From Nyssa sinensis (taxonomy: Eukaryota; Streptophyta; Magnoliopsida; Cornales; Nyssaceae), in the NCBI GenBank assembly GCA_008638375.1, contig CM018031.1, positions 57,958,688 to 58,022,687 of the forward strand: DNA of 64,000 bases, in the 5' to 3' direction. The translations under genes were made by a program, and so were the position numbers. Positions within the stretch are counted from its first letter, which is position 1. Each line of letters begins with the position of its first letter. Positions 22,913 through 58,646 of this stretch are shown one piece after another. Under the pieces are notes generated by a model that had not been told where the DNA came from, ran no database searches, and was given only the letters and a program-made list of their open reading frames with translations.

Positions 22913-22920
22913 GTTCCAAC
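22913..22920. repeat. hAT target-site duplication, right copy
   Basis: GTTCCAAC, identical to 15069-15076. Copia gag sequence resumes immediately to its right. Confidence 0.92.
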
Positions 22921-23125
22921 CATGGGAGCAAGGGTAGAAGCCACCAAAGGTTCGAAGTCGCCACAAGGATACTTTCAGTAGTGATTTAAACTGAAATCAC
23001 AAAAAAATAGATGAATTAATAAAAATCTGTAATTAAACAGATTACTTAAGTAAAACAGAATCTGAATATTTTTAGTGAAATTAAGTTTTGTAAAAAAAGG
23101 ATGTTATGCTAATAATATTTTTGAA

Positions 23126-37600: not shown

Positions 37601-40600
37601 AACTGGAGCTATCATGCTTCTATAGAAGGAGTAGACAGAAAAAGAATTCTTATCTGGCCTCTAAACTCCCTTGTCCTCCCTATCTTCCGAAGCCTGGAAA
37701 TTGTTAAGTAACCGAAGGAAAGAGCCCACCTCATCAAGCTCCCAATCATAAAATTCTCTCCTAAAGCAGGGGGCCCAGATAAGCTTGTTCCCAACTTTCT
37801 CCAAACACTCACTAACCCGAGCCTCTTTGTTGCTAGCCAGATTGTACAACCTGGGGAATTTCACCCTCACAGACTCGTTCTCCCCAGTCCATGCATCATA
37901 CCAAAATTTCAACCTATCGCCATTTTCGAGGACAAAACGGCACTTTTCCATGAAGAATCTCCACCCATCTCTAATGAAACCCCATGGGCCACAACCCCTC
38001 GGGCCCTCCACACTGCCCGAGCACCAACTTGCGTGATCGCACCCATACTTAGCAATAATGATATCCCTCCAAAGCTCCCCATTGCTTTCACTAAATTTCC
38101 ATAGCCATTTCCCTAAAAGGGCTGAATTGAACATGCTCAAATCTTTCACCCCAAGGCCCCCGTGAGACACCGGCTTCTTGATTTTGTCCCAAGCAACAAG
38201 GTGAATCTTCCTAACCTCCCCTTCATGACCCCATAGGAAGTCCCTTTGAATCTTCTCAAGCCTTCTACGAACTGTCTTTGGAATAGGGAATAGGGACATG
38301 AAATAAGTGGGGAGATTGGCCAAAGAGATTTTGACAAGGGTGAGCCTGCCTCCCTTATACAGGGGTTGGGCCTTCCAACCAGATAGCTTGCTGAGAAACC
38401 TTCCAACCACCGGGTCCCATACCCCAGTGGAACGCGGAGAAGCACCCAGAGGTAGGCTGAGATAAACCGTGGGAAGGTTGCCCACTTTGCACCCTAAAGT
38501 GCTGGCTAACAAGTCCAAGTCCTGAATCAGCCCAATTGGAGTAATACTGCTTTTTGCGAGATTGATCCGCAGACTTGAAACAGCTTCAAAACACACAAGA
38601 ATGCATCGGACAAAACGGAGCTGACGGACTAAAGGGTCACAGAAAATGATGGTATCGTCCGCAAACAAAAGATGGGAAAAGCCAATGCCACCACCACTTC
38701 TGCCCCCCACCTGGAAGCCTTTGATGAGACCAACCTCCTCCGCTCGGAACAAAAACCGACTCAAAGCCTCCATAGCAATCACAAAAAGAAAGGGGATCAC
38801 CCTGTCTCAATCTTTTAGAAGAACGGAAGAAGCCTGCAGGGGAACCATTGACAAGGACAGACAAGGAGACTGTGGAGATACATGACTGAATCCACTTCCG
38901 CCACTTACCCCCAAAACCCATCTTTGCCAGCATACTTATCAGAAAACTCCAGCTAACATGATCGAAGGCCTTCTCAATATCCAGTTTGCATACAAGCCCA
39001 TTCCTTTTCTGCTTTATCCTCGAGTCAATGTATTCGTTGGCAATGAGAGCCGCATCCATAATTTGTCGGCCCTCCACGAAAGCATGTTGACTAAGAGAGA
39101 TGATGTTGTCCATAATCTTCTTGAGCCTAAAAGAAAGAACCTTTGCAATCAGCTTGTACACACTGCTCACAAGGCTAATAGGATGGAAATCCTTGATGCT
39201 AATGGCTCCTTCCTTTTTTGGAATGAGGGCAATGAAGGAAGCATTGAGGCTACGCTCAAAGCCGCCCTCCCTGTGGAAGGCCTCGAAGACCGCCATTATA
39301 TCTGCTGTCAGAACACCCCAACATTTTTTGAAAAAGGCCACAGTGAAACCGTCAAGGCCTGGAGCTTTATCGCCGTTGCAGGCATCTAAAGCTCTTATCA
39401 CTTCTTCCGAAAAAGGGATCTCTAGATTAGAGGAATCGTCCCCATTCAGGCTATTCAGGAAGAGGTCGTTCACCCCCAGTCTCCATCTATGCGGCTCTGA
39501 GTACAGAGATGAGAAAAAATCCACAATACCTTTTCTGATAGGAACTTCCTCAGTGAGAATCTCGTCATCAATAACAATAGAGGAAATATGGTTTTTCCTG
39601 TAAAGAGAAGAAGCCATTCTGTGGAAGAATTTTGTGTTGCGGTCCGTTCTTCCTGTAACGTAGTGTAGTACTTATGTTAGTTTCAACTATTTGCCCTTCA
39701 TCTATTTATATCTTGCAATTGCCTCAACTTTTACCCTCCACATCACATCGGGAATCCTCTCTATCCTACGCACAATTGCCACTTAATCATGACCTGCTCC
39801 CTACTCTACCTATCATCTTCACCCTTTTGTTGATTTTTTTTGATAGGTAAAGTATCATTAGAAAGGACCGCAAGGGGCCGAAACCTATGTACGTGGGGCA
39901 TTCATAAAAAAACTTAGAATTATCCTTCATTTACAAATCACCCAAAAAAATCAATAAAAGAATCTATATCTAGTTGAAAAGATCCTCCATGCTGAAAAAA
40001 ATGAAGTCCAGAGCATCAACAATGTCAAAAGGCAACGGAATGCTCCTCTCCTTCAAGGACCTTTCAATTTCTTTTCCTCCAAATGCACCACATTACACAA
40101 CGCAGAGACAAAAACCACAAGGGTTGGAACTTTTTTTTTACGCTTGCATCCCCCTTGCTCATGGGTGAGGAAATCAAGAGCAAAACCTGACATAACTCAT
40201 TAAAATACCAAAAAAGGCCAACAAAGAAGCCTAAAGAACCCAAGCTATAGGACACCAAGGAAGAAGGTGCATCAAAGACTCCTCTTCCATCTTGCACATT
40301 GGGCGGGCACTCATTGGCCAATTTGAACTCTCTCTTCTTCGTATTATTGTTTGTAAGAATAGCACTCCATGCGCAGATCACACACAAAAAAAAGGTCACC
40401 TTTAGGGAAACTTTTGATTTTCATATACTTCTAAGTGAAGGGAACCCCTTTGCAGCCTGACAGAGACACAGAGAAAGATTTAAGTTAGAACGTGCCTCCT
40501 CTTGCTGCCTTCCATGATCCACTCACCCTTTCCCACTCTACCCACCCTATAGAGAGGCCAATAGATCAAAGATTTGCCCCAACTCCCACTCTTGAAAGCA

Positions 40601-42021
40601 TCTTCTAAAGCTTGGAGACCAAACCACTCCACTTTTAGTGACTGAAATAAAAAAGGGCTAATGAGGCATCTTCATTTGAGGAAAGTCGAAAAAGATCCAG
40701 GAAAATTTCCTTCAACAATTTATTGCTACACCAAGTGTCCCACCAAAAACTGATACTATGACTTGAGCCCACATCAAACAAGACTAATGGAGAAAAGGCA
40801 TTCCAACAAGTTTCAGATGGGACTACTATTCTAATTTTAGTATGGGATTGACTTGCATCTAAGCTCTCTGATTTAACCTGAAGCATGGGTTTCAATTGCC
40901 CTACTTGGACTCATGGCATAATCATTCATTTTGGTGCAATACCTGCAATGGCATATACCGTACTTTAGGAATTAGTCAATGTCATTGAATACCACAATTG
41001 AATGAATTCAAGCCAGAGTGAAAATGCTTTCTTTGTCTTCTCTCTTGTTCCCAAGATCTAATAACATTGAAAATATATGGCTCCAAATGCATGTCATTTA
41101 ATCATCCTAAATTGCTATCAAGCTTCTATTCCCATATCCTTGTGTCCAAATCTTTTTGATGGATGTGTACGAGAAATGAAGTGCTTAAAGAGAATTGGTT
41201 CCCAAAGTTTATGGTCTTCACTTTAGGTTTTGTTTGTTTTGTTGGAAATTAAAATTATGAACTAATTATTTTTTTTCTGAAAAATATTTAAGAGGCAAAA
41301 AATTACTTATCCTGATTTTCCACTTGTTTGGTTTAAACTAAAATTTGTGTACCAAATTCTTTCACTGGTTTGGTTGTTTGTAAGAATCTAGAATAACATT
41401 ATTTTGGTGATAATTTTTTATAAGAGAGACATTGGGGTTTATTGCTTCTCTTTGTTTGGGGTTCTTGAATTTTGCCTCAGTCAATTTGGGATCTATTATA
41501 GCCTGTTGGGGTTTTGGGGTTGGGGGGTTTGGATGCCTGAGAGGCAGTCTCTGCAAAACTTGGGCAGGTGGTTCCTTGTTGTTTGATGTAGGTGCATTTG
41601 GTAGGGAGAAAAATAGATGTACTTTGAGGATGTAATAGTTGTCTATTCAAAGACTTAAAAGAATTTATTAGATATGTTATACTCTTTATTTATTTAATTT
41701 TTTCCCTTGTTTGGTGACTTAAATTGTATAAATGAGCTTAGTTGTTAGCTCTTGTATACTTTGCAATTGCATATACATGAGATTGCATCCCATTACATGC
41801 TCAAATCACCTTTTTTTTTTTGGAGAATACTATTGCAATTGCATGTACATGAGTTGATTCCCAATAGCGCTTCTTTATAATATACTATTTTACTTGTCAA
41901 AAACTTTTTCACTTCTAAAAAATAAAAGGTATAGTTCATACGGGAGCCAAAAATTATAAAACTTCTTGAACTTTTTCCTCTTAATGTAGAAAACAACTGT
42001 TTGGACCTAAATTCGGGATGT

Positions 42022-42062
<41 letters not shown>

Positions 42063-42640
42063 ATTTTCAGAATTTGGAATTAAACAAACCACCCCACTTT
42101 GTAAATTTCTTGGAATTTATTTGTTTTGACTTATTTCTGGTGCAACAGAGAAACAGACAGTGGTAATTTTTTTTTATCAATTTTAACCACCTGTTATCTG
42201 CTAGTAGCAAAGAGTTATCATCTAGGTATTGAAACATGATATTTGCTTTCTACACGATTACGATCTGTGTAAAATTGTTTCCCATGTTAATTTTGGTTGT
42301 AGAGGGAATTAGCTGGTTTTGTGTAAAAAGAAAATGCCAAGTTGTGGAAAATAAGAAAAGGCCATTTTCGATGGCAAGGATGGGTTGCATCTTAAATAAT
42401 TCAATTGCTTATATGAACTACTAAACTTGTCTTTATGTCTATTAGAGGAGAAAACAGTCAGATTTGGACAATGTGGTAGTGCTTAAAACATTTTTCTCTA
42501 ATACCTATGATATTTTGAATCTGCAGATTGCAAAAATCACAGAAGAGGGTTTTACTAGCTATCCGCCGTATGCATTGAAGACTTTCTGGAATTTCTCTGC
42601 CTTCCAGAATCCAACTGTGGGTGCTGAAGGATCCTGGTAG
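26551..42640 (+). CDS. PBG1: 20S proteasome subunit beta type-4 (PBG1), seven coding exons
   Basis: Exons, all with GT-AG borders and matching phases: 26551-26556, 26651-26718, 28297-28373, 35024-35153, 35332-35491, 35590-35775 and 42527-42640. Together they give 741 nt, or 246 residues, the size I recall for Arabidopsis PBG1. Signature stretches are [79 protein letters not shown] and a C-terminal GAEGSW. Beta-4 (the B7 position) sits in the inner ring of the 20S core, contributes no catalytic threonine, and is needed for assembly of half-proteasomes. The short N-terminal segment before TGTSV is the family's propeptide. Exon 1 holds only two codons (Met-Asn); that start is supported by an in-frame junction and a good donor (GTGAGT). 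Introns 3 (6650 bp) and 6 (6751 bp) are swollen by transposons, while introns 1, 4 and 5 are 94-178 bp. No disabling change is seen, so it is likely functional. Confidence 0.96.
27095..28130 (-). pseudogene. LINE fragment in proteasome intron 2
   Basis: The minus strand at 28081-27842 reads as the C-terminal zinc-binding (zf-RVT) region of a plant LINE ORF2: [33 protein letters not shown]. Around 27095-27250 a second block, with minus-strand TTCTATTATCAATCAATATT, resembles the 3' terminal part of such elements. Frames are broken. It lies antisense within intron 2 and the ends are approximate. Confidence 0.6.
28600..28795. repeat. ~95-bp tandem duplication in intron 3
   Basis: Two adjacent diverged copies each contain CATATTTGTGA, then a TATGTTCAG- or AATGTTCAG-type block, then GTGTGTGC or GTGTGTATGC. 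The first is preceded by GATGCCTCTAAGCTCACAC and the second by GATGCTTTTGGCTTTCAC. Confidence 0.55.
28796..30250. other. Intron 3 sequence, no gene seen
   Basis: AT-rich intronic DNA with homopolymer T runs (29326, 29405) and a (TA)n tract at 30040-30054. No exon or element end supported. Confidence 0.5.
30251..30810. mobile_element. Non-autonomous element with GAAGCACG termini, intron 3
   Basis: It starts GAAGCACGAATATAG and its right end, reverse-complemented, starts GAAGCACGGACACTA. The subterminal parts repeat GGACAC, ACACG and CGATACGTATCC-like words on opposite strands. The middle is AT-rich with a (TA)n tract. I found no convincing target duplication; the right edge abuts a LINE tail that may have replaced it. 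Mutator-type is the likeliest class. Confidence 0.5.
30811..31440. mobile_element. LINE insertion with an apparent internal inversion
   Basis: The left part (30811 to about 30985) is the 3' end of a LINE on the minus strand: its reverse complement ends ATATATAATTTACATTTACC then AATCAAAAAA. The right part (about 31010-31400) reads openly on the plus strand as an acidic protein ([37 protein letters not shown]), like the tail of a plant LINE ORF1, and ends in a T run at 31401-31416. Opposite orientation of the two halves is what twin priming produces. The ORF1 assignment is tentative. Confidence 0.45.
31441..31965. other. Intron 3 sequence, no gene seen
   Basis: AT-rich, with a short (AAAAG)n run near 31792-31810. 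No other feature recognised. Confidence 0.5.
31975..32460. mobile_element. Mutator-type non-autonomous element (GGCG family), copy 2
   Basis: The left end is GTGTTGTTAAAGGCAACTAG. The right end, reverse-complemented, is TCCGTGTAGTTAAAGGCAAG. The flanking 9-mers are identical: GTGTAAGTA at 31966-31974 and at 32461-32469. It shares ends and the internal TTTTCGGGTAATGTAGGAC block with copy 1 at 4790-5408. The perfect 9-bp duplication supports assigning this family to the Mutator superfamily. Confidence 0.8.
32584..33106. mobile_element. hAT-type MITE in intron 3
   Basis: The left end is TAGAGGTGTCAAGC. The right end, reverse-complemented, is TAGAGGTGTAAATTGG. The 8-mer GTTCTACA is duplicated exactly at 32576-32583 and 33107-33114. 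It is 523 bp and GC-richer than its surroundings, with repeated GGCACAA, TTGTGCC and CCATGGCAC-like words on both strands. No transposase. The open frames inside come from this low-complexity sequence. Confidence 0.88.
33115..35023. other. Remainder of intron 3
   Basis: A short duplication of the GGTTCTACAATGTATTGT block (33107-33126 and 33194-33213) is present, and a C-run/(CT)n tract at 34569-34618. No exon is supported between 33115 and 35023. Confidence 0.55.
34569..34618. repeat. Poly-C / (CT)n microsatellite
   Basis: C-rich runs followed by about 13 CT units. The open frames across it on both strands are artefacts. Confidence 0.85.
35785..36160. repeat. Tandem duplication at the start of intron 6
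   Basis: CTGAACTTCTG, ACGACCTGTATTAAATGCTA or ATGACCTGTATTAAATGCTA, CACTGCATTCTTGAATATTT and AGCTGAAATTCGAAAGA all occur twice (about 35790-35905 and 35949-36120). A third partial GCTGAAATTCGGAAGACATT is at 36128-36147. Confidence 0.7.
36303..36332. repeat. (CT)n microsatellite
   Basis: An uninterrupted CT repeat of about 14 units inside intron 6. Confidence 0.8.
36721..36816. repeat. Three tandem 32-bp repeats
   Basis: The unit starts TTGACTCAACATTGGTTCC and ends TATATCTTG, at 36721-36752, 36753-36784 and 36785-36816. Units 2 and 3 are identical; unit 1 has ACT in place of GCG. Confidence 0.9.
37013..39661 (-). mobile_element. 5'-truncated LINE (L1-type) in proteasome intron 6
   Basis: The 17-bp word AGTGTAGTACTTATGTT is present at 36996-37012 and again at 39662-39678. 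That is the target-site duplication left by target-primed reverse transcription. The element's A tail (plus-strand T run) abuts the left copy. Its ORF2 begins without the endonuclease domain, so it is 5'-truncated. It is antisense to the proteasome gene and fills 2.65 kb of intron 6. Confidence 0.93.
37086..39617 (-). pseudogene. LINE ORF2: reverse transcriptase and zf-RVT, frameshifted
   Basis: Read from 39617 leftward. The RT fingers carry [18 protein letters not shown], then [46 protein letters not shown] and RQGDPLS. The catalytic FADD box ([11 protein letters not shown]) follows in another frame at about 38680-38640. Next come the thumb region ([28 protein letters not shown]) and, at 37615-37388, the zf-RVT zinc-binding domain ([35 protein letters not shown]). 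The C-terminal [14 protein letters not shown] ends near 37086. The frame breaks right after RQGDPLS near 38800-38790, and again near 37660 and 37390. The family normally also has an N-terminal endonuclease, absent here. The breaks are few, which suggests a fairly young insertion. Confidence 0.93.
39838..40900 (-). pseudogene. Second LINE ORF2 C-terminal fragment, intron 6
   Basis: The minus strand at 40895-40635 reads like the region after the RT domain ([19 protein letters not shown] then [13 protein letters not shown]). At 40399-40064 it resembles the zf-RVT tail, ending [17 protein letters not shown]. The plus-strand T run at 39836-39844 followed by GATAGGTAAAG is the LINE 3' end. It lies 160 bp beyond the first LINE in the same orientation but has different sequence, so it is a separate and older insertion. 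Confidence 0.75.
40901..42526. other. Remainder of intron 6
   Basis: No gene seen. It contains a (TA)n tract at 42028-42060. An imperfect repeat of CAATTGCATRTACATGAG occurs at 41764-41781 and 41836-41853. The acceptor for exon 7 is TTTGAATCTGCAG at 42514-42526. Confidence 0.6.
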
Positions 42641-44425
42641 GCAGCTAGCCGTATAGGGCCCAGAATACAGATTGGAAAACAAAATACATGAGTTGCTAAA
42701 TTGGAAGGTTGATGCATCTTTGTATTGATTGATGACTTATTAGGTAATATTGACTTGATCTGCATGTGTTTAACTTTGCTTTTCTAAAGTTTTCCTTGGG
42801 AACTTTTCTGGTCTTTTGTCTTACAGTTGATGGTGATCGCAATTTAGAACCACTCATTTCTTTTTTAAACAAATGTTACTAGCTTGAGATCAGTGTGCTG
42901 TTTGGTAGTCTATTACCTGCTTTTGCTAGTTGCCCATGTATCTGCATGGCGTTGTTCCAGGTTGCATTTAACTTGAATTCTGTATGTGGATGCATGCACG
43001 CATACACATACATTTATCCATTAGAGAAGTTATTCCATGAGATTTTAGCTTTACAGTGGTTCTTACATAGATTCCTCAAAATACTGATATCATAGATAGA
43101 TACCGTCACATTGTGAGAGACTCGTGGAAAAATGTGTGTATGGAAGACATTAACAAAAGTTACAAAACGGACCGTCACATTGTCAAATTTTCAGCAAAAT
43201 TGGTGTGAATGATGATGGACCCGAGGAGATAGGCTCATGAAAGAGGATGTGATCACGTGAATGCATTAGTCAGAATTTTTTCACAGCAGGAATGTTCTAA
43301 AATTTACTAACAAAATTAAATTATATAGAAATGAATTATTATTACACGTGTTTTCAATAATTTAAAAATATAAATAATGGATAATTTTTTAACACAAAAT
43401 AAGATATAATAATCATAAGTAATTTATCAAAGTTAAATTATAAAAAATAAATAAATTTATTCTTCCTAAAATTTTATTTGCATTCACATATACTATTTCA
43501 AGTTTCGACTGAGAGGCAAGTTTAATTTTAATTTTGATTATTATTAAAAACTGGATAGTTAATTTTGTGTATAATATGTATATGTAAAGTATATATTATT
43601 TTGTACAAATAAAATTAGAATGTTTTATGTTAATTAAAATTTAAATCTACAACTCTTTATCTAGAACTACAAAACTCAAAGATGGTTAAAAAAAACTCGA
43701 GTATAGTTCAAATAAAGGAATTATCATTATTTGAGAATTTAATTAAATAATAATAGAATCCTTAAAACCTTTATGGATAAATTTCGGTACAAAAAGTATT
43801 CTTTATGTATAAATTTTGGTATAAAAAGAATATCTTATATGAAAAATTTCAATGATATTTCGGTGCAAAAGGAATACCTTAATGCTTAATTAAGTTATAA
43901 AAATAAATCTTAATATCATTTAGCTAAAGAAGTTGCATTTATTACATTTACTATGTCATAATTTTTTTCATTTATAATATTTTTACTCTAATTATGTAAA
44001 ATATTAATAAATATAATTATTAAGACATGTTGTAAATAAAATATATCTTGAATGATTTTTTTGAAAAAGTTTTAATTATTAAGTACGATATATATAAATG
44101 ACTTTTTTTTTGGAAAAAACATTAATTATTAGATACTAGAATTATTAATTAATCACAGAACTAAATTAATTCTTAAAATTTTATTAATTATTAGATATTA
44201 TTATTTTATTAAATATTAATTATAAGAACGTAATAGCTGATAAAAAAAAAAAAAAAAAAACTGTAATAAGTCCTGTTTGGTAGAACAGTTGGAAGCATGA
44301 TTCCAATGTTTTGTATCAGAAACTCCAAAAACTTCTACTGCCGACGCTATTTCTATCGGGCCAACGACTGGGCCAAATAGGCACCGAGAAGATGTCTAAC
44401 TTCTCTAATAACCAGGAAAAGAAAG
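42641..44425. other. 3'UTR and AT-rich intergenic DNA
   Basis: The proteasome 3'UTR follows the TAG at 42638-42640; no canonical AATAAA is seen in the next 350 bp. From 43300 to 44260 the DNA is extremely AT-rich, with many near-repeats of ATTAATTATTAGATA-like words, and holds no recognisable gene. Confidence 0.5.
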
Positions 44426-44433
44426 TTTATTGG

Positions 44434-45161
44434 TAGGGTTGTAAAATGAGTTGAGTGATTCGAATTTAGCTTGTGATCGGCTCGGTTATTATTATGCGAA
44501 AGCGATCAAACAAATAATAAATTGATCTTAAATGAGCAAAAATAAACAAAAAACATAAACAAGACACAAGATTTACGTGGTTCGGCAAAATGCCTACGTT
44601 CACGGATAGCGATGATTAGTTTATTATGTATCAAAGAGATTATAAAAGCAAAAAACTCCCAAAACCCGAAACTCTTTTTTCTCAAATGGCGGCTCTCTTT
44701 TTCTCTATCAAACTCTAAAAGATAATATCCTTATATTAGTGGGTTACAACATAAGAGAAAAACGGGTCAAAAAATAAAAAACGGGTCAAAAAAATTTAAA
44801 AAAACGGGTCACCAAGAATCCGAGTGAATTCATGACAACCACCCAACAATAGGCTCGTTCGAGATCAGCTAGCAAGATAAATAAACTAAGCTTGAACATA
44901 TTTTGAGGCTCGTTAATTTATTGAGCTCAGCTCGAGTTCGACTCATTAAGTCAAAAGTAGTCTAATACTTTATGAAAATTTAAATTATTTGAACTCGACT
45001 CGCGATCGATTCGATCAAAAGCTCATTCAAGATCAACTCAAAAAATTAAGAAGTCGAACTTGAACACAATTTGAAACTCGTTAATTTTAGCTAATCAAGC
45101 TTAAAAAATCTAATACTTGGCTCGGTTTAGCTTGGCTCGACTCGACTCATTTACACTCCTA
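44434..45161. mobile_element. hAT-type non-autonomous element
   Basis: The left end is TAGGGTTGTAAAATGAG. The right end, reverse-complemented, is TAGGAGTGTAAATGAGTC. The flanks TTTATTGG (44426-44433) and CTTATTGG (45162-45169) match at 7 of 8. Subterminal regions repeat GGCTCG, CGACTCG and AGCTCGAGTTCG words, as in the hAT at 15077-22912. The middle includes TTACGTGGTTCGGCAAAATG, a block often seen in plant repeats, and three copies of AAAACGGGTCA. 728 bp, no transposase. Confidence 0.78.
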
Positions 45162-45471
45162 CTTATTGGAGGGATAGTAAGTGGGTTTTTCACATTACTT
45201 CTCAAATATATTTATTGCAAAAGTAATTTTAAAAGTTTGGTTAAATAACTAAAACATATTTTTTGGAAACAATTTTGCAAACAAAGATGTAAAGTAAGGT
45301 GTAAACTATCTCAAGTAGGCCTTAACTAATGCTTAATTAAGTCACCACTGGGCTCAAGTCTTGTGCAGAGCTCTAATGGTTGTTCATACCTAATTAATAC
45401 CCCTCATTTTCAAGAGGTAACCAACCTGAATTGAAGTCATCATAATAAAGTTACACAATCCAAACAAACTA

Positions 45472-45612
45472 GTCTTAATGCAACGATAAGGTTATTTTAT
45501 TGTAATTTAGAGATCACGAGTCTGAGTTAGGAAATCAACCTCTTCATTTATGAGATACGGCTTGTATACAACTTAATTCTCTTCAGATCTCAGCAGCGAC
45601 AGGAGCTTGACT
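45472..45612 (+). mobile_element. Au-type SINE, copy 1
   Basis: The order of blocks follows the Au SINE family: CAACGATAAGGTTATTTTAT, then GAGATCACGAGTCTGAGTTA (B-box-like), GAAATCAACCTCTTC, GAGATACGGCTTGTATACAA, and CAGATCTCAGCAGCGACAGG then AGCTTG. The sequence is diverged and no target duplication is clear. Confidence 0.6.
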
Positions 45613-45639
45613 AGCCATATAATCCAAATAGACAAGAGC

Positions 45640-45792
45640 TGATCTTTGTGTAACGATAAAATTGTTCTATTGTGACTTGAAGGTCACAAATTTGAGTTAG
45701 AGAAACAACTTCTTCATTTATGAGATAAGACCTGTATACATACTACGGTTCCCAAATTCTGCAGTGATGGAGCTGCCTCTGCCTCGTACAAG
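45640..45792 (+). mobile_element. Au-type SINE, copy 2
   Basis: The same block order as 45472-45612: GTAACGATAAAATTGTTCTA, GACTTGAAGGTCACAAATTT then GAGTTAG, GAAACAACTTCTTC, GAGATAAGACCTGTATACAT, TCTGCAGTGATGGAGCTGCC and CCTCGTAC. Confidence 0.6.
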
Positions 45793-45993
45793 CAGACGAT
45801 TTTCTCTTTAAAATTGCCACCATTGATGTATTCCCCATCTTACCTACAAGAAAAACTGTACCTTCCAGTGTTAAAAAGAAAACAGAAACACAGAGAATTA
45901 AGGAAGCAAAAACACCAACCTTTTAGACTTGTTGTCTTTCTCTTTAACTTCCAAGCTGGTCACCATGTTTCATGCTCCATTTATTGCACTTAC

Positions 45994-46091
45994 AAAGGTT
46001 TCCTATGCAGGAGAAATGATGCCGGCCGGCAGACCAGCCTTGAGATGGGTGCATGCATGACGGTGTCATCTCTCCTGCGTAGCAAACCTTT
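45994..46091 (-). ncRNA. MIR4376/MIR391-family microRNA precursor, copy 1
   Basis: A 98-nt foldback on the minus strand. The 5' arm (46091 to about 46055) starts AAAGGTTTGCTACGCAGGAG and pairs with the 3' arm (about 46024-45994, ending GGAAACCTTT), leaving only isolated C-A, A-C and G-G mismatches and one G-U in 30 positions. The predicted mature 22-mer occupies 46081-46060 and begins TACGCAGGAGAGATGA; the star strand is at about 46002-46022. From memory the core equals miR4376 (tomato) and is close to miR391, of the miR390 superfamily, whose known target is an ACA10-type calcium ATPase mRNA. The loop of about 38 nt contains a TGCATGCA palindrome. It differs from copy 2 at mature position 18 (A instead of G). 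A TATA box lies about 55 nt upstream. Confidence 0.88.
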
Positions 46092-46140
46092 CCATGCTTC
46101 TCTTCTTCCATTCCATTGATAACAATGTAGTGCAGACTGG

Positions 46141-46152
46141 TTTATTTATGGG
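46141..46152 (-). promoter_or_regulatory. TATA box of MIR copy 1
   Basis: Minus-strand CCCATAAATAAA, preceded by a CTCTCTCC-type stretch and conserved in copy 2 (50583-50594). It lies about 50-60 nt upstream of the hairpin, so transcription would start just before it. Confidence 0.6.
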
Positions 46153-48101
46153 AGAGAGTCATATCAAATAATCATGTAGTTGTTTGCTCTTTCTTTTCTA
46201 GATAATGTTTTGTTATTCAAATTCAATACTTAAATGAAAAAGAGTCATTGATCTGATGAAATAGTCTTTTAAAAAACAACTCATGTTATAATAATTCATA
46301 ATTCTCTCTTATTTAAATATAAAAATTTAGATCATAAAACACTACATTTTTGTCATTTTATCCAGACTTGACTGGCTTCAATGAATGGTCTAAGAACGAT
46401 GAATCCTAAGCTACACATGATATAATAATTTAATGATTTTCAAAAGTTGAATTTTCTGATTTTTTTTTTTGTAACATTGTCTGTTTCTTACATGTGGTTG
46501 GAATTTCATTACTCTCATTGACGGATCACTTTCATGGCTTCATTCCACATTTGCTGCTGTCACCACCCTCTACGTCACCTATTATAGTAGTCTACACGTT
46601 AACATGAACCAATTAGCTAATCTAATCATCAGTGGTCATCTTTTTCTCCTTTTGTTTTCTCTTTCATTGCCGGTGAATAGGACCGAAATCATATTTGTCT
46701 TTCGACAGTCACAATTGTCACTGTTGTGAATATGAATTATTTGTGTATTTCACCCACAATCATGTATAAAATGCACATATAATTGAGATTTAATTCATTT
46801 CTTTATCACTTTTCCTAATTTTTAAAGAATATATTTTTTATTTGCATTTTATTTTTAATTTTGAGATCATATTAAATTATTATTTAATGAGACTATCATT
46901 TTATATAAGTATTTAATATTGTAAAATCACGTGAGATAATGACGTAAAATAATTGTTTTAATAAATAATACTACCCAAAAATTAATAATATATATATATT
47001 TTTTTTTTGTAAGTTTTTGATGAATTTTAGTTATCAATAATTGTATACATTTTTAGTGAACCAAAGATTAGGTTATGACACATGTAATATCAACTTGCAA
47101 ATAAATCTATCTTGCAAACAACAAAAGGGACTCACATGAGATGATTTGGGACCTACTTTAGGTGCAGATTTTGTCGTTTTTGTGTTGCAATTATTTATCA
47201 CATGTTTCACATTTTGATAGAATTTCAATAAGATTGGCAGTCAATATGTATCTAGTTACATCATCATCCCATGCTGTCAAAAAGCAATTAACATGAATGC
47301 ACCCCAAACCATTATCCACGGTTCAATGTTTTTGGAGGAAAAAAGTCATCATGTTTTTTTTTTTTATAACTTGGTATCTAATTTTTCGGATTGATTAATT
47401 CAAAAAATCGATCTCATCGTTCATTAACAGAGGATTCAATATGGATTGGTTAAAAAAAAAAGTAATATCTATTAGATTTTGACCTGACAACTTTGAAGAG
47501 AAAGTCTATTAATTACTGTCGACCATTTACTTGACTATTCCCTATATATGCACTTTCCATTTCTGTATATGCATTTTTTTAATCTTTTTGGATCCAAGGA
47601 AATTGAAATGGAACAAGCGAAATCGGAGACTTGAACTCGAGTGTTTTGTGAGAAGGGGATGACTTTAAGTTATTTTTTAAATGATGTGACAGTGTCACAT
47701 TAAATATACATCCTATCATAATGTGTTGAGCCAAATTCTTTTATTTAAAAGCATAATAACTTTTAATTTTGTCTCACATTGCTTTTGTACCTATTCTTTG
47801 TAAAAGACACATTAAATAAACATTAAGCTTGTATCTTTTTACAAAAGATACATTAAATGAGTACTTTTAGATAGTTGTGACTCTTTGAAAATTCATATTT
47901 ATTGGGTGTTTATAAATAAGTTTTCTTTTAAAAAATGCACATGTATTCATAAATTTTACGGTATAACGAATTGAATAATTCAATTAAACTATCTAACCCT
48001 CTATCAAAATAGAGATTGTAACTAAGAAAAGACACATCAAACTAAGAAAAGCCACGTCTGGATCTATAAATTCTGCAGTTCAATAAATTGAATAATTCAA
48101 T

Positions 48102-48103
<2 letters not shown>

Positions 48104-48139
<36 letters not shown>
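48104..48139. repeat. (CT)n microsatellite
   Basis: About 18 uninterrupted CT units. Confidence 0.88.
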
Positions 48140-48142
<3 letters not shown>

Positions 48143-49797
48143 AGAATAAAAATTGTAAAGTAAAAGATTTCACACGAATTCTTTCAGTTTTGCTGGTTGC
48201 AGTTCTTCAAACTAAAAATTTTTAATATAAAAAGTTCAATTGTTAAATTTCATCTTAATATTGTTAAAAAATATTACTGATTAAATTAAAATGGCTTTCA
48301 ATATATATTTTAAATAAAAATACTAAAAAATATATAAAATAACTTTTTCAATACAAAAAAGCATAACATTTTATGAAGTAAAAATTTATTTTTTTAGGCT
48401 GTCTAGATAAATTAAAAATGTTTTTTTTTTGGATTTTATGAACTATTTAATATTTTTTAAAAATTTATTTTGAAAGCTATTTTAATTTAATCAAAATATT
48501 TTTTAACGGTTCTAAGATAAAACTTAACAATTTGACTTTTTTGGATCTTTTAGATATAAAAAAATGTATCATAAAATTTTTGAATTAAAAAATTTATTTT
48601 AGAAATTTTTTAGTATTTTTCTCCCAAGAAAAAAAACTATCAACCCTAGGATTGGCTAAGTTTTTTTTTTTTTTTATTATAAAAATTATGAACAGTTATG
48701 GACTTAATTTTTATTTTTGAGAAAAAAGATGGAAATTCTATTTGTAGATTGGAGATGAAAACTGAAATCTTAAAAAAAAAAAAAAAAAAAGTAGAAGAAG
48801 AAAAAGTACAAGAGTGTTCTAAACCAGAACTCAATACAAAAACATCAAATCACTGCCGACACTTCGGTGGAATGGCAATGGTGGAAAATTTCTTTGGGTG
48901 CTGTACATTATTCTTTACTTGTGCATAAAAATTAAAAACCTCGCAAAACCATTGGCTATGAAAACTTATATGGAAAAAAAAAAAGTATGAAAGTGCAAGA
49001 AGCTGCAACAACATGAAAAAAAAAACAGACTAAACAAAAATTATTATACAGTCCTAAAATATTAATCAGAACAATGATTTCAATTAATTATGAATTGTTA
49101 TATATAAAAAAATTATTTTTTATCTTTTAAAAATCTAACGTATTATAGATAATTTATAATTGGTTGGATCAATACCATATAATAACTTCTCGAGTCAATA
49201 TTGACCCTGTTTTCAAGGTTTAGAACTCTCTAATCTTAAGCAATATTAATGAGAGACAATGCTTAGCTCCAAACTCGGTAAGATATATTTTCTTCGATTC
49301 ACATATCTATCACAATTATAGTAGTCTACATATGTAATAAACATGTGTTTTTTGATTTTTTTTTTGAAACTAAATAGTCACGTAATATAAATACGAATGA
49401 TACGTGACTTACTAAAATTATGACACGTAATTAAAAGTGAATTCTTCGACCTGATTAATTTAGAGTCAAGCACGGTTCGTAATTGAGTGTAGCTATGGCT
49501 ATTATTAATCCATGTGTTCGATCAACATTGTATCCGTATGTCTAAGAGCTCGCTCTGTGACGTCTTTGTTTGATTATGTAAAAAAATATTCCTCTGCACT
49601 CAGCAGTATATGTATTAGGTCAAATGTACACTTGAGTTGATCGTTGCTATGAAAGAGCATTCACAATAATACTAGCTAAAATTTACATGCTAACTTGTCC
49701 TGTTTACATGGAAAAGCATACGACTAGATGCAGGATATGGTACCCATACTATGACACACATGACTAACTCAAATCTTCCATATATATCCAAGGACAT

Positions 49798-49835
49798 CAA
49801 TATATATATATATATGTATGTATGTATGTATATAT
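49798..49835. repeat. (TA)n / (TATG)n microsatellite
   Basis: TA units followed by four TATG units and a further TATA. Confidence 0.75.
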
Positions 49836-50383
49836 TATGAGGGAATCAACTAAGTCAGTACCAAGTATTCAACTGTTTCATGATCTCAAAGTGCTAGCCA
49901 GCTTGAAACATAACTGGACAGGCTCTCAGAGAGATGCAGTGGCAGAGTGTTGAAGTTTGTCAAGAGAAAAGATGGATTCAAGAAATAGAAAAAATCCAAA
50001 TTCTCTAGGGATCAGCACAAGAAAACTTATGAGAGGACAATAAGTAATGTTTGACAAGTCTCGTGCACTTCAGCTAGCTAGCTCTAATAGTTTCTTCATA
50101 ACCCCTCCCACCCCTCCCTTCCCATTTTCAATAGTTATCAACCTGTAATAGAGTCATCATATCAAGACATATAATTATACAATCCAAAGAGACGGTTTTT
50201 CCTTGAGATTGCCTCCACTGATTTCCCCATCTTATCTGCAAGAAAAGTGTACTTTCAAGTGTTCAAACAGAAAGAAGAAAACATAGAAAGGAAGCAAAAT
50301 ACCAACCTTTTAGGCTTGTCTTTCTTTTTAGACTAACTTCAAACTCGTTATGGTGTTTCATAATCCATTTATCGCACTTGGAT

Positions 50384-50485
50384 AGGTTTCCTACGCTGGA
50401 GAAATGATGCCGGCCGGCACACCAGCTCGGTCACTGAGATTGAGATGGGTGCATGACGGCGTCATCTCTCCTGCGTAGCAAACCT
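50384..50485 (-). ncRNA. MIR4376/MIR391-family microRNA precursor, copy 2
   Basis: Minus-strand foldback: the 5' arm begins AGGTTTGCTACGCAGGAGAG (50485 downward) and pairs with the 3' arm ending TCCAGCGTAGGAAACCT (50384). There are three single mismatches and one G-U across 28 positions, then a loop of about 45 nt. The predicted 22-nt mature strand is 50477-50456, starting TACGCAGGAGAGATGA; the 3' arm begins at the TGCCGGCCGGCA palindrome. Pairing is asymmetric only at mature positions 6 and 17, well within plant miRNA rules. Family, presumed target (autoinhibited Ca2+-ATPase transcripts) and class (miR390 superfamily) are recalled, not searched. The predicted mature strand is closer to the common family form than copy 1 at position 18. 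It lies 4.4 kb from copy 1 on the same strand. Confidence 0.9.
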
Positions 50486-50582
50486 TTTCTGTGCTGTTCT
50501 TCTAGTCTGTTTGGCCCCACTGTTTTTTTAGCCAAAATCTCCGAACATCTACTCTTGGTTGATCCATGGAGTACTGCAGCTG

Positions 50583-50594
50583 TTTTATTTATGG
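50583..50594 (-). promoter_or_regulatory. TATA box of MIR copy 2
   Basis: Minus-strand CCCATAAATAAA within GACTCTCCCATAAATAAAAC, conserved with copy 1. A CACGTG-type ACGTGG word lies a few bases further upstream (50610-50616). Confidence 0.6.
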
Positions 50595-50859
50595 GAGAGT
50601 CATATCATCACGTGGCTGTTTTCTTGCTATCCAGACTGGCTCCAGCTAAATATGAGGCTGTCTAAGAAAAACGAGTCCTCAATGCTCAAGGGCACATTAT
50701 TTCAAGTTTTAAACAGTAAACTAGATGATGTTTTTATGTTTTTTGTAGCATTGGCCTGTTCTTACATGTGACTGCAATTTCATTACTCTCGTTCGCGTAT
50801 CGCTTTCATTGTTTTATTCCACATTTGCTGATGTCACCACCTTGTTCGAGTAATGATTT

Positions 50860-51689
50860 ATAAATTTTATATTTTTACTTACGTGACAGGATGTGTTGAA
50901 AAATCTTAGTAATCCCGTTCTTCTCTCTTTCTTTCTCATTCTACACTTACTAGTAACACATTACATGTATAAAAATACATGAATAAAAATATATAAGTCA
51001 TAAATTTAGTAGGATTATTACTTTAAACTTTATCGTAATTTGAGAAAAAAGCATTTTTTATGTATCAGTTTTCGTGCCCAAAGCATTTTTGATGTATCAG
51101 TTGTCGTGCCTACAGAACAAATAATTGTTAAAAACATCTGAGTAATAAGCACACTTCAAAATGAGTGCTCTCTTGTTTCAACTTCCTCATAGGTTTTAGT
51201 AGCACAGTCAAAAAAGCGACATCATCATTATTATAATCATCATCGTCACCGTTTCCATCACTACCACGCAACACTTTTTGATGTACAATTTTTTGACACG
51301 TGACTTTTTTTTTCTGTGTGGTTGTAAAGGCAATCGGAGCCTAATAAAAAACGCTACTTTTCTAACAAAGGAGACTTCTTATCAATCCTATTCTCTCACA
51401 TTTACATTTTTCTTTATAATTTAATAATAAATATATCTCAAAATATGGCCTTTTACATCTGCGTCCCACTTTCTTTTATTAAAGATAATATAACTTTACT
51501 TTTATTATTTTTTTAAAAAACCTTGATTACGTAAGTTTGAGAGAACAAAGTTCTCTTGCAATTGAATAGTGCACACTATGCCGTTACATAACTACAAAGA
51601 TATTCATTGTATTCAAATGAATGACATAAGCAAGAATTTTTTTTCTTCATTGTATCATACTCTTCAATTAATGATTGCCTAAGGAGCAG
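50860..51689. other. No gene seen
   Basis: AT-rich sequence with (CAT)n-like trinucleotide words near 51220-51265. No element or exon recognised. Confidence 0.5.
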
Positions 51690-52150
51690 TGATGTTTCTC
51701 ATTTTTAATCAAACGGGTCTCCTATTTTTTGTTACCCATAAAAAACTTGAAATTAGAGAATCATCAAAAAAAACTTTAATGATAACCGCTCTGATGATAA
51801 AGTCAGTAAATAAAAAAATATTGTAATTTAAAAGAGGAATTGAATATAAATTAAAAGCATACCTTATGACCTTATTTATAAGTTGTAGATCTCCTCAATT
51901 GAGTTGGATTAAGAACCATAAAAGTAGGGATTTGAAGATATCCGAAGATAGTAGTTGCCATATTGAACTTTGTTTCCTTATTCTGAGATCGATAGGATAT
52001 GGAAGCCGGTAATATATTCTGAACCATATACCTCTGGACCTTCCATGCCTAGTTGATTTGGATAAAATAATATTTCTTGATCCGTTCCCTAAAGAGTTCT
52101 GTATAGACATGTGTCATTCTTTGAATATGTTTGTCACTTTATGATATATT
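51690..52150 (-). repeat. Gypsy/Tat 3' LTR
   Basis: It starts TGATGTTTCTCATTTTT and shares with the other LTR AAAGTCAGTAAATAAAAA, TTGTAATTTAAAAGAGGAAT, CTGAACCATATACCTCTG and TGAATATGTTTGTCACTTTA. Its end is degenerate (ATATTA against ATATCA). Confidence 0.85.
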
Positions 52151-52380
52151 AGCTACTCCCTCTCGAGCCTCTGTCCTGGGGCATGATTAGAGCTGAGTTT
52201 AGGTTTTTGAGGCGTTATACGCGTAGTGGTTATAAATGTGTTGCTCTTTATTTGGAGGAGACAACCGTTGATGGGCCATTTATTGCGTTAGCTGCAAGTT
52301 GGAATTACGAGGCCATCATTGCTCTAACCATCATGGCGGTTCGAAAGTGAGGGCCTCCCACGTGACACTTGTTGGATCTT

Positions 52381-52387
52381 TATAAAA
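52381..52387 (+). promoter_or_regulatory. TATA box of the antisense ORF
   Basis: TATAAAA in the context GGATCTTTATAAAAGGGAGG, about 240 bp before the ATG at 52621. It is followed by a leader with CTCCCCCTTTC. The box is well formed and points plus, opposite to the element's own transcript. Confidence 0.6.
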
Positions 52388-52620
52388 GGGAGGGAAACAC
52401 ATCAGTTGCTCCCCCTTTCAATACTTTAACATTTTGAGAGCCTTCAAACCACAAGAGAGAACATTTCAAACTGTAAGAAAGATCTTTGAGTGATGCGAAC
52501 TTTGGCATCCTAAGATGATCAATTCCAATCAAATCTATGGTCAAGTTTCAATCCCAAAAACATTTTTTTTTTAAATTCTTTGCATCTTTTTCTACTCTTC
52601 TCTATTTTCTTATTTAGACC

Positions 52621-54590
52621 ATGTCGACCTCTAATGCTCAGTCAAACATTGATCATGAAATTGCAGAGTCCTTGGAGATATACAACCAGATAGAAGTGAA
52701 TCTTGTAACTAGCAGCCCATCAGAAAACGTAGAAAATAGGATTATTGGTAACCTAACCCCAGTTTTGAAGTCAAGATAGAAGAGGCTTTCATAGAGCCTA
52801 GGAACATCGATGGGGAGACCTCGGGTAAATCCCACAAAAGGGAGGAAGGAGAGAGCGCCATGACTCAGAGCATGATAGATGCTCTAAGGGCTATTTTTGA
52901 CATCCCTGCAAACGTGTCTTGTAGGGTACTAAGACCATTAGATTGCCCCTCCAGTATTCAATAAGGTAAGATCTGTGCTTACCTTGAGTGGTTTGAGATA
53001 GGGGTTAGGTTCCCCTTTTACCCTTTTAAAAGAGGATTTTTTAATTGGTTCAATATCTGCCCTGCTGATCTGAATATAAATAGTTGGAGGCATTTACTCG
53101 GGTTCATAGTTTTAGGACACTTGAATAATGTCGAGGTAGACCTCCCTTTGATTAGGAGTAATATGGATATGAAATACCTGAAGTCGGATGACATGTTTTA
53201 TATGTCTTTCGACAAAGGGTTTAAACCTCTCTCCTTTGTACCCACTTTCAACAAGACTTGAAAGAAGTGGTATTTCTTTGTAGAAGGAGGCTGGGAGTTC
53301 AAGGACTTCGGAGCCAGGTTTTAACCTTCCTATGAAAGACTGGCATCAAGGGTGAGGCCCTTTTTTGTTTTGTACTTTTTCCCTTTTGGGTTTTCATGTT
53401 TTATTTTATTTTTTCTTTTTGAACCTAATCCTATGCCTTTATGCAGATAAGAAAACTTGAAAGAGATCGATCTTCATCGTTTATTTTTAACAGAAGTATA
53501 AGAGCCTCCTTTAGACCAACAATCGCTTTCACGAAGCCATCATTTGCCCCAAAAAATTGATGGAGGCTGGTTTGGTACGAGATCGGACCAAGATTTTGAA
53601 GAAATCCCTGGTGACCGAATGGGTGCCAAGGAAGAAGAAGAAGAAAGTTGGGAAAAGTTCTTCCCCTGTCGAGCCTCCTCTTCCAATGAAGAGAAGGAGG
53701 TTATTCTCCAACTCCCTCGAGAGAATTGTCTCGGAGGATTTTGGGATTTCTCCTGTTTAAGAGGCTCTTCTGCCCCCAGTGCCTTTTGTTCTGAAGAAGA
53801 GAAGGGGAAAGGTAAATCAGTTGCGGTCTTCTCAGGGTCTGATGACTTTGACGCGATAGCCGTGAAGAAGGTTTATGAGGACTCTTGGACAACGGGCCCA
53901 AGCAAGTTCACAAGACTGGAGCCCTAGAGGATAGCCAAGGATTTGATGACTTTTCACATGAGGTTGAATTTTGTATTACTTTTCCTTATTTTTAGTTTTC
54001 TGGTTCTGTATTTTGCACGTAATCCATTCTGACTTGATTGCGTTGCTTGTGTTTTCCAGGCCATGCATGGCTTGGTAGCCATTATGGATTTCCCTAAGAA
54101 CCCCAAGCATATTGATGCCCTATAATCTGAGCTCGATGAGGTCAGATTCCAGTTGGGAACTGTGCAGTTTTCGGTGACCGTAGCCGAAAAAAAACTGAAG
54201 GAGGCTACCAATTCTGACTCTATTTTGGAGTCCGAGAGGGATGCCTTTGCTACCTAATTGGAAGCTCTCAAGAAGAGGTTTGCAGACTTCCAGGCTACTT
54301 CTGTCTAGAAGGTTCAGGACACCGTTGAAGCCGTTAGAGCCCAAACTGAAGTGGATCTAAAGGTTGAAGTCCAGGATCTGAGTGGCGAGCTGATTGAGTA
54401 TAGATATTGAACCTTCAGAGCGAAGCTCCAAAAGAAGTATCCTAACTTAGATCTGATTGGAGTAATTAATATTGAAGTCTCCTAAGTTGAGATCGATACA
54501 CTGGATGCTGACGAGGAAGAAGAGGAGATGGATCCAGAACTCCCTCAAATTGCTACTTCAAAGACTGCCGAACTAGCAGTAGAGTAGACT
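52621..54590 (+). pseudogene. Antisense ORF of the Tat element (putative gypsy-type transposon domain)
   Basis: It starts MSTSNAQSNIDHEIAESLEI on the plus strand. A mid-part at about 52960-53320 (AYLEWFEIGVRFPFYPFKRG, NSWRHLLGFIVLGHL, KKWYFFVEGGWEF) resembles the plant domain annotated as putative gypsy-type transposon. Two introns are visible: 53352-53446 (GTGAGG...ATGCAG) and 53963-54059 (GTTGAA...TTCCAG). The last exon (54060-54590) reads as a coiled-coil region (SELDEVRFQLGTVQFSV, AEKKLKEATNSDSILESE) ending in an acidic tail (DTLDADEEEEEMDPELPQ). In-frame stops are many, mostly TAG or TAA where Gln is expected. The function of this ORF in Tat elements is unknown. Confidence 0.7.
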
Positions 54591-54829
54591 TGGGATGTTT
54601 TTGTATACTTTTTTTTTTTTTTTCTCTTTTTCGATCTTGTAATTTTCCCATTTTTTGTGCTAATATATGAAATTTCAATCATTCAAGAACTTGTGTTTTG
54701 TTTGATATATTTGTGGTGTGTCTGACCTCGAGATAATTTTTTCAATATCCAGACTAGTAAAAAATATAAGTTCTCTTAGAGACTCTAAAACACTTACAAG
54801 GCATTTCATAGGCCTAAATATCAGAACAT

Positions 54830-55395
54830 ATAGAACCACGACACTTATAAATAAATAAAGTTTCTTTAGAGGTTTGTAGAATGAGAAAAATGGACCAGAC
54901 CTATAACACTCGTAATGAATACAAGTTTTGAGGGGTCTGTACATTGATAAAATAGACCAGACCTATAGTAGTTGTATTAAATGCCAGACATTTAGGTTTT
55001 GTACATTGATTTAATGGACCAGACCTGTAGCACTTGTAATAGATACAAGGCTTTTAGGGGGCTTGTGCATTGAGTGAAATGGACCAGACTTGTAGTAGTT
55101 GTAATAGATACAAGGCTTTTAGAGGTTTGTGCATTGATAAAACGGACCAGACCTGTAGCACTTGTAATGGATACAAGGCTTTTAAGGGTCTGTTCATTGA
55201 TAAAATGGACCAAACTTGTATCACTTATAATAGATACAAGGCTTTTAGGGGTCTGTGCATTGATAAAATGGACTAGACCTGTAGCACTTATAATGGATAC
55301 AAGGCTTTTAGGGGTTTTTCTCATTGATAAAATGGAGCATACCTGTAACATTTGTAATGAAAACAAGGCTTTTAGAGGTTTGTGCATTGATAACA
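54830..55395. repeat. ~60-bp tandem repeat array in the Tat 3' region
   Basis: Nine or so units share GTGCATTGATAAAATGGACC, AGACCTGTAGCACTTGTAAT and ATACAAGGCTTTTAGGGGTC. The later units are most alike and the leftmost ones degenerate. Because the unit lacks stops in several frames it creates open frames on both strands that are not genes. Confidence 0.9.
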
Positions 55396-55424
55396 AACTC
55401 TGAAGAGAATCAAAAGTAGCTTTT

Positions 55425-56700
55425 TTATTGATAATAGTTGCATAAATGTTTGATGTTCGAAGGTCTGGGTACAGGCTTCTCAGTTGAATCTTCCAACCAA
55501 TAAGTCGTAGGTCTGACGATCTTGGTTACTTTGTAAGGTCTTTCCCACTTAGGGGAGAGCTTTTCCATTGTGGGGTCTTTAGTGTTTGGAAACACTTTTT
55601 TTAGGATGAGATCTTTGAGCTGGAAAATGATGGGTTTTAACCTCTGGTTGAAACATTTAGTCATTCTTTATTGGTAGGTTTCAGTCCTAATCTGAGCTTA
55701 TTCACGTCTTTATTCTAATAAGTCCAGATTCTCCACAAGCTATTGGTTATTGGCCCCTTGGTCAAAACAATTTGTTTTAAGGGTTGGCATGCCAATTTTG
55801 ACATAAATGATTGCCTCGATGCCATAGGCGAGTGAAAATGGTGTTTCCGCAGTTGGGGTTCTTTTAGTAGTTCGGTAGGTCCAGAGTACTCCGAGGAGTT
55901 CTTCGACCTATCTTTTCTTAGCTTCTTCCAACCTTCTTGTAATTACCTCTAGAATAGTGCGGTTGGTAACTTCGGCTTGCCCATTAGCTTGAGGATGCCC
56001 TAGAGAGGAGAAGTGGTGATTGATGTGCAGGTCTTACAGAACTTTCTAAATACCTTTCTAGCAAACTGCGTCCCATTGTCTGAAATAATGATGCAGGGTA
56101 TACTGAACCTGCATACTACATTTTTTCAAGTGAAATTCTTTACTTCTACCTCTGTTATGTGGGTCAATGGTTCAGCCTCTACCCATTTAGAAAAATAGTC
56201 AATGGCGACTAACAAGAATCTCTTGTTTTAAGGGGTTTTTGATAATGGCCCTACTAATGTCCATTCCTTATTGGACGAAAGGCCAGAGACTCGCGATAGG
56301 CACGAGTTCATGATGAGGTTGATGTTGGTATGAGGCGAAACATTGACATTTTTCACATTTTTGAACATATTCCTTAGCCAGTTTTAGAATACCGTGCTAG
56401 TAGTAACCCTAAGTTAATCCTTAGTGAGCTATGGTCCTACTGCCATTATGGTTGCTATAGATCCCTTAATGTATCTCGGTTAGGACTGTAGTGGGCCAAT
56501 TCTGGAGTTAACACCATAGGAGGGGCTGTGTGTAGGACCTTCAGTAAAGTTTTTCTTTAAGAATTAAATACCGAGCTGCCCTAATTCGAATTCTTGTGAC
56601 ATGATTCTTGTCCTTTGGAAACAACCCTTCTTTTAGATACTTATATGATGGGAGTCATCCAATTTTGAGGTTGTTTTGAAATTTGAAGGGATAGTATTAC
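55425..56700 (-). pseudogene. Gypsy/Tat integrase, broken
   Basis: At 55664-55425 the minus strand carries the integrase C-terminal GPY/F-like module (SPKWERPYKVTKIVRPTTYW, LEDSTEKPVPRPSNIKHL). At about 56200-56010 it carries the catalytic core (HITEVEVKNF, CIIISDNGTQFARKVFRKFC), where D in SDNGTQF is the second catalytic aspartate. The zinc-binding HHCC part is expected near 56400-56350 but is not clearly readable. Stops separate the segments. Confidence 0.78.
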
Positions 56701-57617: not shown

Positions 57618-58646
57618 TTAACATTTAGAGGTCCATTCTAGGGCCTTACTTCCCCTCAAGGCTTTAAAGACCAGAAGACATCGATCCGTAGATTTAGAGA
57701 TAAACCTATTCAGTGCTGCTATCCTTCCATTTAACCCCTGGGTATTTTTCTTGGTTTTAGGTGATTCTAGTTTCAATAAGAGCTTTGATCTATGAGGGAT
57801 TTGCCTTAATTCCTTTTGAAAAACTAGAAAACTCAAGAATTTTTCTTTTATGATCTCGAAGGTACATTTTAATGGGTTAAGTTTCATTCTGTGTTTCTTC
57901 AGGATGTCGAAGGTCTGGCTCAAATGTTGGATGTGGTTACCCTTCTGAACACTTTTGGCAAAGATATCGTCGATGTAGATTTCTAATGTATCCCCAATTT
58001 GGGGGTCAAACATTTTATTTACAAGTTCTGGTACGTAGCTCCAGCATTCTTCAAATCGTACGACATCACTCTATAACAATAAAGACCTTGTTATGTTTGC
58101 AAGAATTGTATTGGCAAGCCACTCTAGGCAGAACACGTTTATTATTATTCCTATTATTCCAACATTTAGCAACCTCTGGACCTTTTCATTGATGGTTTTG
58201 TGGCGTTTTCAGGGAAAATGTTTTCCTTTTTTGTCTTACTGGAGGATGGTCTTGATCTGTCATCAGCTTGAGCGAGATGAAATCAAGATCTATTCCCTTC
58301 ATATCTTAAGTTTCCCAGATAAATATCGAAAGGTTGTCTTTTAAGAATTTAACAATATCCTCTTGCTCAGAAGGAGACAAGGTTGAGCCAATTTGTACGT
58401 ACTTTCCCTATCCTTCAGTGCTCCATTGGTTTGATTGCGCCGTCCTTTCCTCTAGGACTTAGTGGCTTGTCAATCTCAGAAGGACATTCTTCAACCTTAT
58501 GAAAGTTAGAAGATGAGGAACTTTTCTTTTCATGAGGGTACTATAATTGCTGTTTGGAGGGCTTTTGTTTTAGTGCGAGGGCATGACATTTTTGGGTAGT
58601 GGGCTGACAACCCTTGATGGTGAGAACTTTGTTATTGTGGACATAT
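57618..58646 (-). pseudogene. Gypsy/Tat reverse transcriptase, broken
   Basis: At 58013-57618 the minus strand carries the RT palm and connection: FDPQIGDTLEIYIDDIFAKS, where YIDD is the catalytic box, then HIQHLSQTFDILKKHRMKLN, PLKCTF and GRIAALNRFISKSTDRCLLV. The N-terminal fingers between 58640 and 58014 are degraded by stops. On the right the reading is interrupted at 58646 by the Mutator-like insertion and resumes into protease at 60643. Confidence 0.82.

Follow-up and report, generated by a model that had tools for sequence, protein, structure and literature searches.

The 64,000-nt stretch of Nyssa sinensis DNA analysed here (the window; contig CM018031.1 of assembly GCA_008638375.1, positions 57,958,688 to 58,022,687 of the forward strand) carries two short foldbacks in the same orientation, copy 1 at 45994..46091 (98 nt) and copy 2 at 50384..50485 (102 nt), both described below as read on the minus strand. 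We consider it very probable that these are two paralogous microRNA (miRNA) genes belonging to the miR391/miR4376 branch of a superfamily derived from miR390, and that they act through the mechanism proposed below.

Structure of the two foldbacks

The arms of both copies pair on folding, and the coordinates and sequences that the original prediction, made from the bases of the window, had given for the two minus-strand foldbacks are correct. Copy 1 folds at -45.5 kcal/mol and copy 2 at -57.6 kcal/mol, compared with means of -26.2 (z -5.67) and -29.7 (z -8.32) for 1000 dinucleotide shuffles of each foldback, none of which folds as well as the copy it was derived from. When the window was scanned for stable folds (12,780 overlapping 110-nt windows, both strands, hits merged into one list), copy 2 took ranks 1 (plus strand) and 2 (minus strand) and copy 1 ranks 5 (plus) and 9 (minus); the minus strand of copy 1 is thus not outstanding by energy alone, ranking below foldbacks at about 22.7 and 32.7-33.1 kb. 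These further foldbacks, at 22711-22820 and 32661-33080, are very stable themselves (-46 to -55 kcal/mol) and gave no convincing Rfam family, the second having been scanned over 32600-32900.

Both predicted 5' arm products begin TACGCAGGAGAGATGAC[A/G]CCGTC, and a 16-mer, TACGCAGGAGAGATGA, which is the family core that had been predicted to open the 5' arm, occurs exactly twice in the window, at the 5p start of each copy on the minus strand (46081-46066 and 50477-50462). With up to three mismatches allowed there are four matches against 0.38 expected (0 of 100 shuffles reach four); the remaining two, both on the plus strand, are the 3' arms in complement, and no match was found elsewhere in the window beyond the two loci. 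The predicted 22-nt 5p miRNA occupies 46060..46081 in copy 1 (the 21-nt form would end at 46061) and 50456..50477 in copy 2 (50457), and duplex prediction places 21-nt 3p star strands at 46002..46022 and 50390..50410, all on the minus strand.

Plant MIRNA genes are recognised by a foldback shorter than 300 nt and more stable than chance, with at most five mismatches and little asymmetry in the duplex, together with precise reads of the miRNA and its star with 2-nt 3' overhangs. Within the 21-nt product, three positions (3, 17 and 18) are unpaired in copy 1 and two (6 and 17) in copy 2; there is no asymmetric bulge, the arms are of equal length, and both foldbacks are well within the size limit. 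In longer predicted transcripts, miRNA positions 1-20, the mismatches excepted, each have a pairing probability of at least 0.97 with the 3' arm, and position 22 is mostly open.

Over their first 23 nt the two 5p sequences differ solely at position 18, as had been predicted, copy 1 having A and copy 2 having G. Copy 2 pairs its G18. In copy 1 A18 has no partner and the star arm is unchanged at that place, which makes A18 probably the derived state. Opposite positions 3 and 6 it is the star arm that has changed, as would fit a constrained 5p.

Extent of the duplication

The similarity between the copies extends beyond the hairpins into four blocks, each of which outscores all 300 of its shuffles. 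Reading along the minus strand, these are an upstream block (46359..46574 in copy 1 and 50628..50848 in copy 2; 161 of 202 aligned columns identical), a block with the TATA-like element (46127-46194 and 50571-50628; 52/58), a block 3' of the hairpin (45789..45991 and 50185..50379; 160/189) and an outermost 3' block (45355..45469 and 50055..50193; 91/110). The recognisable duplicated unit is therefore about 0.8 kb (45355-46574 versus 50055-50848). The hairpin arms are identical at 74 of 78 columns (94.9%), compared with 464 of 559 (83.0%) in the alignable flanks (Fisher p 0.0065, computed with 77 arm columns entered); the flank figure comes from best local alignments with gaps uncounted, so that the true divergence is larger. 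Between the copies the 5' arm shows one difference in 35 columns and the 3' arm three in 43. A flank divergence of about 17% suggests that the duplication is old.

The original prediction of a 4.4-kb duplication is not borne out, since 4.4 kb is merely the spacing of the copies and the 3.5 kb between the units shares no convincing homology with the flanks outside them. When this intervening DNA (46600-50054) was compared under lax scoring with 41000-45354 and 50850-55500, the matches were short AT-rich stretches in mixed strands and offsets, the best having an E-value of 6.2e-6 (66.7% over 123 columns, 49032-49145 versus 44117-44235) and the best upstream one 1.3e-4, on the minus strand. The best local score upstream was 41.5 against a shuffle maximum of 47.0, and the best downstream was 53.0 against 47.5 (n=300 in both cases), which is above the shuffles; we take this downstream excess to reflect AT-rich similarity, though it could also be what is left of a longer unit.

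The copies also differ in length, with extra DNA in copy 1 at about 45470-45788 and 46195-46358, and a longer leader and loop in copy 2. Within the extra DNA of the copy 1 3' flank there is a 98-bp direct repeat pair (45473-45570 and 45643-45740, 77.6% identical), which may derive from a tRNA-derived plant SINE, to judge by its sequence. Between the two genes lies a 313-bp AT-rich palindrome (48229-48541, 71% self-complementary), possibly a MITE-like foldback element.

The TATA box that had been predicted upstream of each foldback corresponds on the minus strand to a TATA-like 16-mer, CTCTCCCATAAATAAA, that is identical in both copies and lies 49 nt above the hairpin base in copy 1 (46141..46156) and 98 nt above it in copy 2 (50584..50599). 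In the 3' part, the motifs AAAAG/GTTGGT and TTCTTGYAG frame 76 nt in copy 1 (45919-45844) and 71 nt in copy 2 (50306-50236), and on the strength of these motifs we guess that the framed segments are possibly small introns.

Family assignment

Both copies, on both strands, were compared with nine published mature strings in all, taken as they are printed in their sources. The 5p of copy 2 is identical at 21 of 21 nt to miR391a of Ziziphus jujuba (PMC5100886), to which copy 1 is identical at 20 of 21; the comparison covers the mature sequence, and the jujube miRNA is a sequenced one with printed counts of 1095 and 289 (PMC5100886). The 5p of copy 1 in turn is identical at 21 of 21 nt, A18 included, to a sequence listed as miR391 for Pinus tabuliformis, the targets of which are given there as unknown (PMC4570457). 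Both 5' arm products start with the family type UACGCAGGAGAGAUGAYRCYG, and five other miR391/miR4376-type strings are identical to them at 18-21 positions. The miR4376 strings of soybean, mulberry, bean, N. benthamiana and tobacco (PMC3673897, PMC4131894, PMC3359237, PMC4667520 and PMC3237444; the tobacco entry is printed as miR4367b in its source) share 18-21 of 21-22 nt with the copies in the same register, the mulberry/soybean string differing from copy 2 at one of 22 positions and from copy 1 at two, and the bean, tobacco, Medicago and N. benthamiana strings being identical at 18-20 of 21. They carry T at position 20, where the Nyssa sinensis copies carry C. The soybean miR4376 is likewise reported as a 5' arm product (PMC3673897).

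Among the listed relatives, A18 is found in N. benthamiana miR4376 and in the pine-listed miR391, and G18 in jujube, mulberry, soybean, bean, tobacco and Medicago. More distant members of the superfamily fit less well: tobacco miR3627b, as printed, is identical to the copies at merely 16-17 of 22 positions and the miR3627 register is shifted by one, and tobacco miR390a is identical at merely 13-14 of 21. miR390 is the superfamily ancestor proposed in a review, and its TAS3 role is not expected for the pair. The 21-mer with R at position 18 has no match in viral contigs or in prokaryote genomes, which fits a plant gene.

At lax cut-offs, the Rfam models MIR3627, MIR391, MIR4376 and MIR5225 (the miR3627/miR5225 group being known from grape and tobacco) can be aligned to both loci from end to end. 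Copy 1 scores 30.7 bits against a gathering score of 64 for MIR3627, 23.9 against 60 for MIR4376 and 23.3 against 70 for MIR391, and copy 2 scores 27.7, 22.7 and 26.9 bits, respectively, against the same thresholds. The best E-value for copy 1 is 3.6e-5 (MIR3627), and for copy 2 MIR3627 (2.9e-4) and MIR391 (7.3e-4) stand second and third. As controls, the strong foldbacks at 22650-22950 and 32600-32900 gave best E-values of 0.51 and 0.33 (the best miRNA model in the latter reaching 0.37), with none of the four family models among their matches. The gathering score is a cut-off of the library and not a property of the RNA; it is the mature sequence that gives the family name. The match of each 5p with listed members, together with these full-length, sub-threshold alignments, supports the earlier proposal of a pair of MIR391/MIR4376-type genes. 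The pair adds new members to a known family and leaves the picture of that family unchanged.

Proposed function and alternative explanations

We propose that an old duplication of the 0.8-kb unit gave rise to the pair and that each copy would be a separate transcription unit, with its own promoter and foldback and with a 3' part that both have retained. Transcription of each probably runs along the minus strand and begins close to the TATA-like block. In plants DCL1 processes such foldbacks, AGO1 is loaded with the product and target transcripts are cleaved. Here DCL1 would cut the foldback to yield a 21- or 22-nt 5p miRNA that, once loaded into AGO1, would direct cleavage of an ACA10-type Ca2+-ATPase transcript, the target being suggested by that of relatives; phased small interfering RNAs (siRNAs) might follow if the 22-nt form is made. 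According to two reviews, ACA10 is cleaved in tomato under the direction of miR4376, which also sets off phased siRNAs. A Ca2+-ATPase is the degradome-listed target of N. benthamiana miR4376, which has A18, and for grape there is a report of miR5225, miR3627 and miR4376 on the 5' region of Ca2+-ATPase10. Published lists give both 21- and 22-nt forms for the relatives. Apple miR4376 is reported as almost confined to leaf and the soybean miRNA as undetected in roots (PMC3673897), which would make leaf the first tissue of interest.

Several observations weigh against this interpretation. The whole-window Rfam scan gave no match at gathering score, and the top Rfam hit for copy 2 is the unrelated MIR1513 on the plus strand (35.8 of 95 bits, E 1.3e-5). 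We reject MIR1513 as the family of copy 2, since the match is on the plus strand, has a different mature sequence and seems to reflect pairing, but it indicates that E-values of this size can come from strong pairing alone. The symmetric duplex of either copy offers no structural cue for 22 over 21 nt, whereas several miR4376 reports list a 22-nt form. Soybean ACA10 is said in one soybean paper to be without the site, and other targets are listed for soybean miR4376: an F-box/LRR gene, Glyma17g05970 (PMC3673897). A uniform role for the family is further called into question by reports that the soybean 3p cleaves a ribosomal protein gene and that an apple table gives an amino acid transporter for miR3627.

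The remaining difficulty concerns the strand, because the plus strand folds better than the minus strand in both copies (-52.2 kcal/mol for copy 1 and -61.4 for copy 2), so that folding alone does not settle the orientation; nor does Rfam, in which the plus strand equals or beats the minus strand. It is conceivable, if quite unlikely, that the plus strand, or each of the two strands, would be used at these loci, with an antisense foldback yielding a near-identical small RNA alone or alongside the minus-strand product. The plus-strand 5' arms match the listed miR391/miR4376-type strings at 17-19 of 21 positions, and grape MIR3627 is reported as unstranded with abundant antisense transcripts. 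Likeness to its own complement is, however, a property of any near-perfect foldback, and the energy gap is accounted for by G-U pairs. No plus-strand arm gives an exact match to these strings; the exact 21/21 matches and the identical TATA-like block above each hairpin are found on the minus strand only, and these, together with the pattern of change between the copies, favour the minus strand.

There is also a small chance that one of the two copies, most likely copy 1, is decaying and has ceased to produce a miRNA. Copy 1 has the weaker fold, three unpaired miRNA positions that include the probably new mismatch at 18, and the extra DNA described above in its flanks. Against decay, its arms are near-identical to those of copy 2 despite the diverged flanks, its TATA-like block is intact, and its 5p is that of the pine-listed miR391. 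The window does contain many transposon remains, and a palindrome lies between the copies, so one could instead regard the foldbacks as pieces of inverted-repeat transposons that make siRNAs and resemble miRNAs by chance. We regard this as extremely improbable: identity over 21 nt to two listed miR391 sequences, with the foldback in the right register, is not a matter of chance, the core is absent from the rest of the window, and on inspection the shared unit carries a promoter-like block and not terminal repeats.

If the two loci are indeed paralogous miR391/miR4376-type genes, they could in addition have divided their work. The original prediction that position 18 may split target preference holds as to the difference itself; the split is weakly motivated, because both bases occur among the listed relatives, A18 even together with a Ca2+-ATPase target in N. 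benthamiana. We think it doubtful that copy 1, in which the probably derived A18 goes with a duplex open at 17-18 and with 164 added bases in the promoter region, serves another Ca2+-ATPase paralog or tissue than the G18 form does, and that one or both loci also make an antisense product, as is reported for grape MIR3627.

Clustered or tandem MIR genes are described in plants for miR156, miR169, miR395 and miR399 (PMC2358906). Passages of PMC2358906, PMC3673897 and PMC5100886, which came up in a search for earlier tandem MIR391/MIR4376 genes, describe no such pair, though this does not prove that none has been published, and in a search for literature joining the family with walnut, pecan, oak and chestnut, neither miR391 nor miR4376 was among the matches listed. 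Should the proposed reading of the pair be right, the window holds two copies, retained over a long time, of a miRNA whose target in several relatives is a Ca2+ pump. With arms that are near-identical and flanks that differ at about 17% of the alignable positions, they would offer a natural test of a single base near the miRNA 3' end and of which promoter blocks matter.

Other elements in the window

A short open stretch, AKEVDIEALIAISVGFPVDLLTEEEIEANMVSQ, at about 59500-59623 (plus strand) is perhaps a truncated gene copy; it may resemble the SWIRM region found in histone demethylases of the LSD1 type, and Pfam gave no match. The remains of a plant LINE lie at 37661-39671 (minus strand), with a weak reverse transcriptase match in 37661-38806 that is below the Pfam cut-off. 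The relatives of this reverse transcriptase segment are LINE-type proteins of 41-51% identity among the best 120 of 907, and the rows with a named organism among those 120 are eudicots (Vitis, Fagus, Carya, Castanea, Cornus and Opuntia). Further transposon pieces, all on the minus strand, are a retroelement fragment with an SH3-like domain (12844-13200), a fragment of a hAT transposase dimerisation domain (19092-19583) and another piece of reverse transcriptase (57618-58070). Finally, a direct repeat of about 460 bp is present at 51690-52149 and 62959-63408, its two members being 81.6% identical and 11 kb apart.

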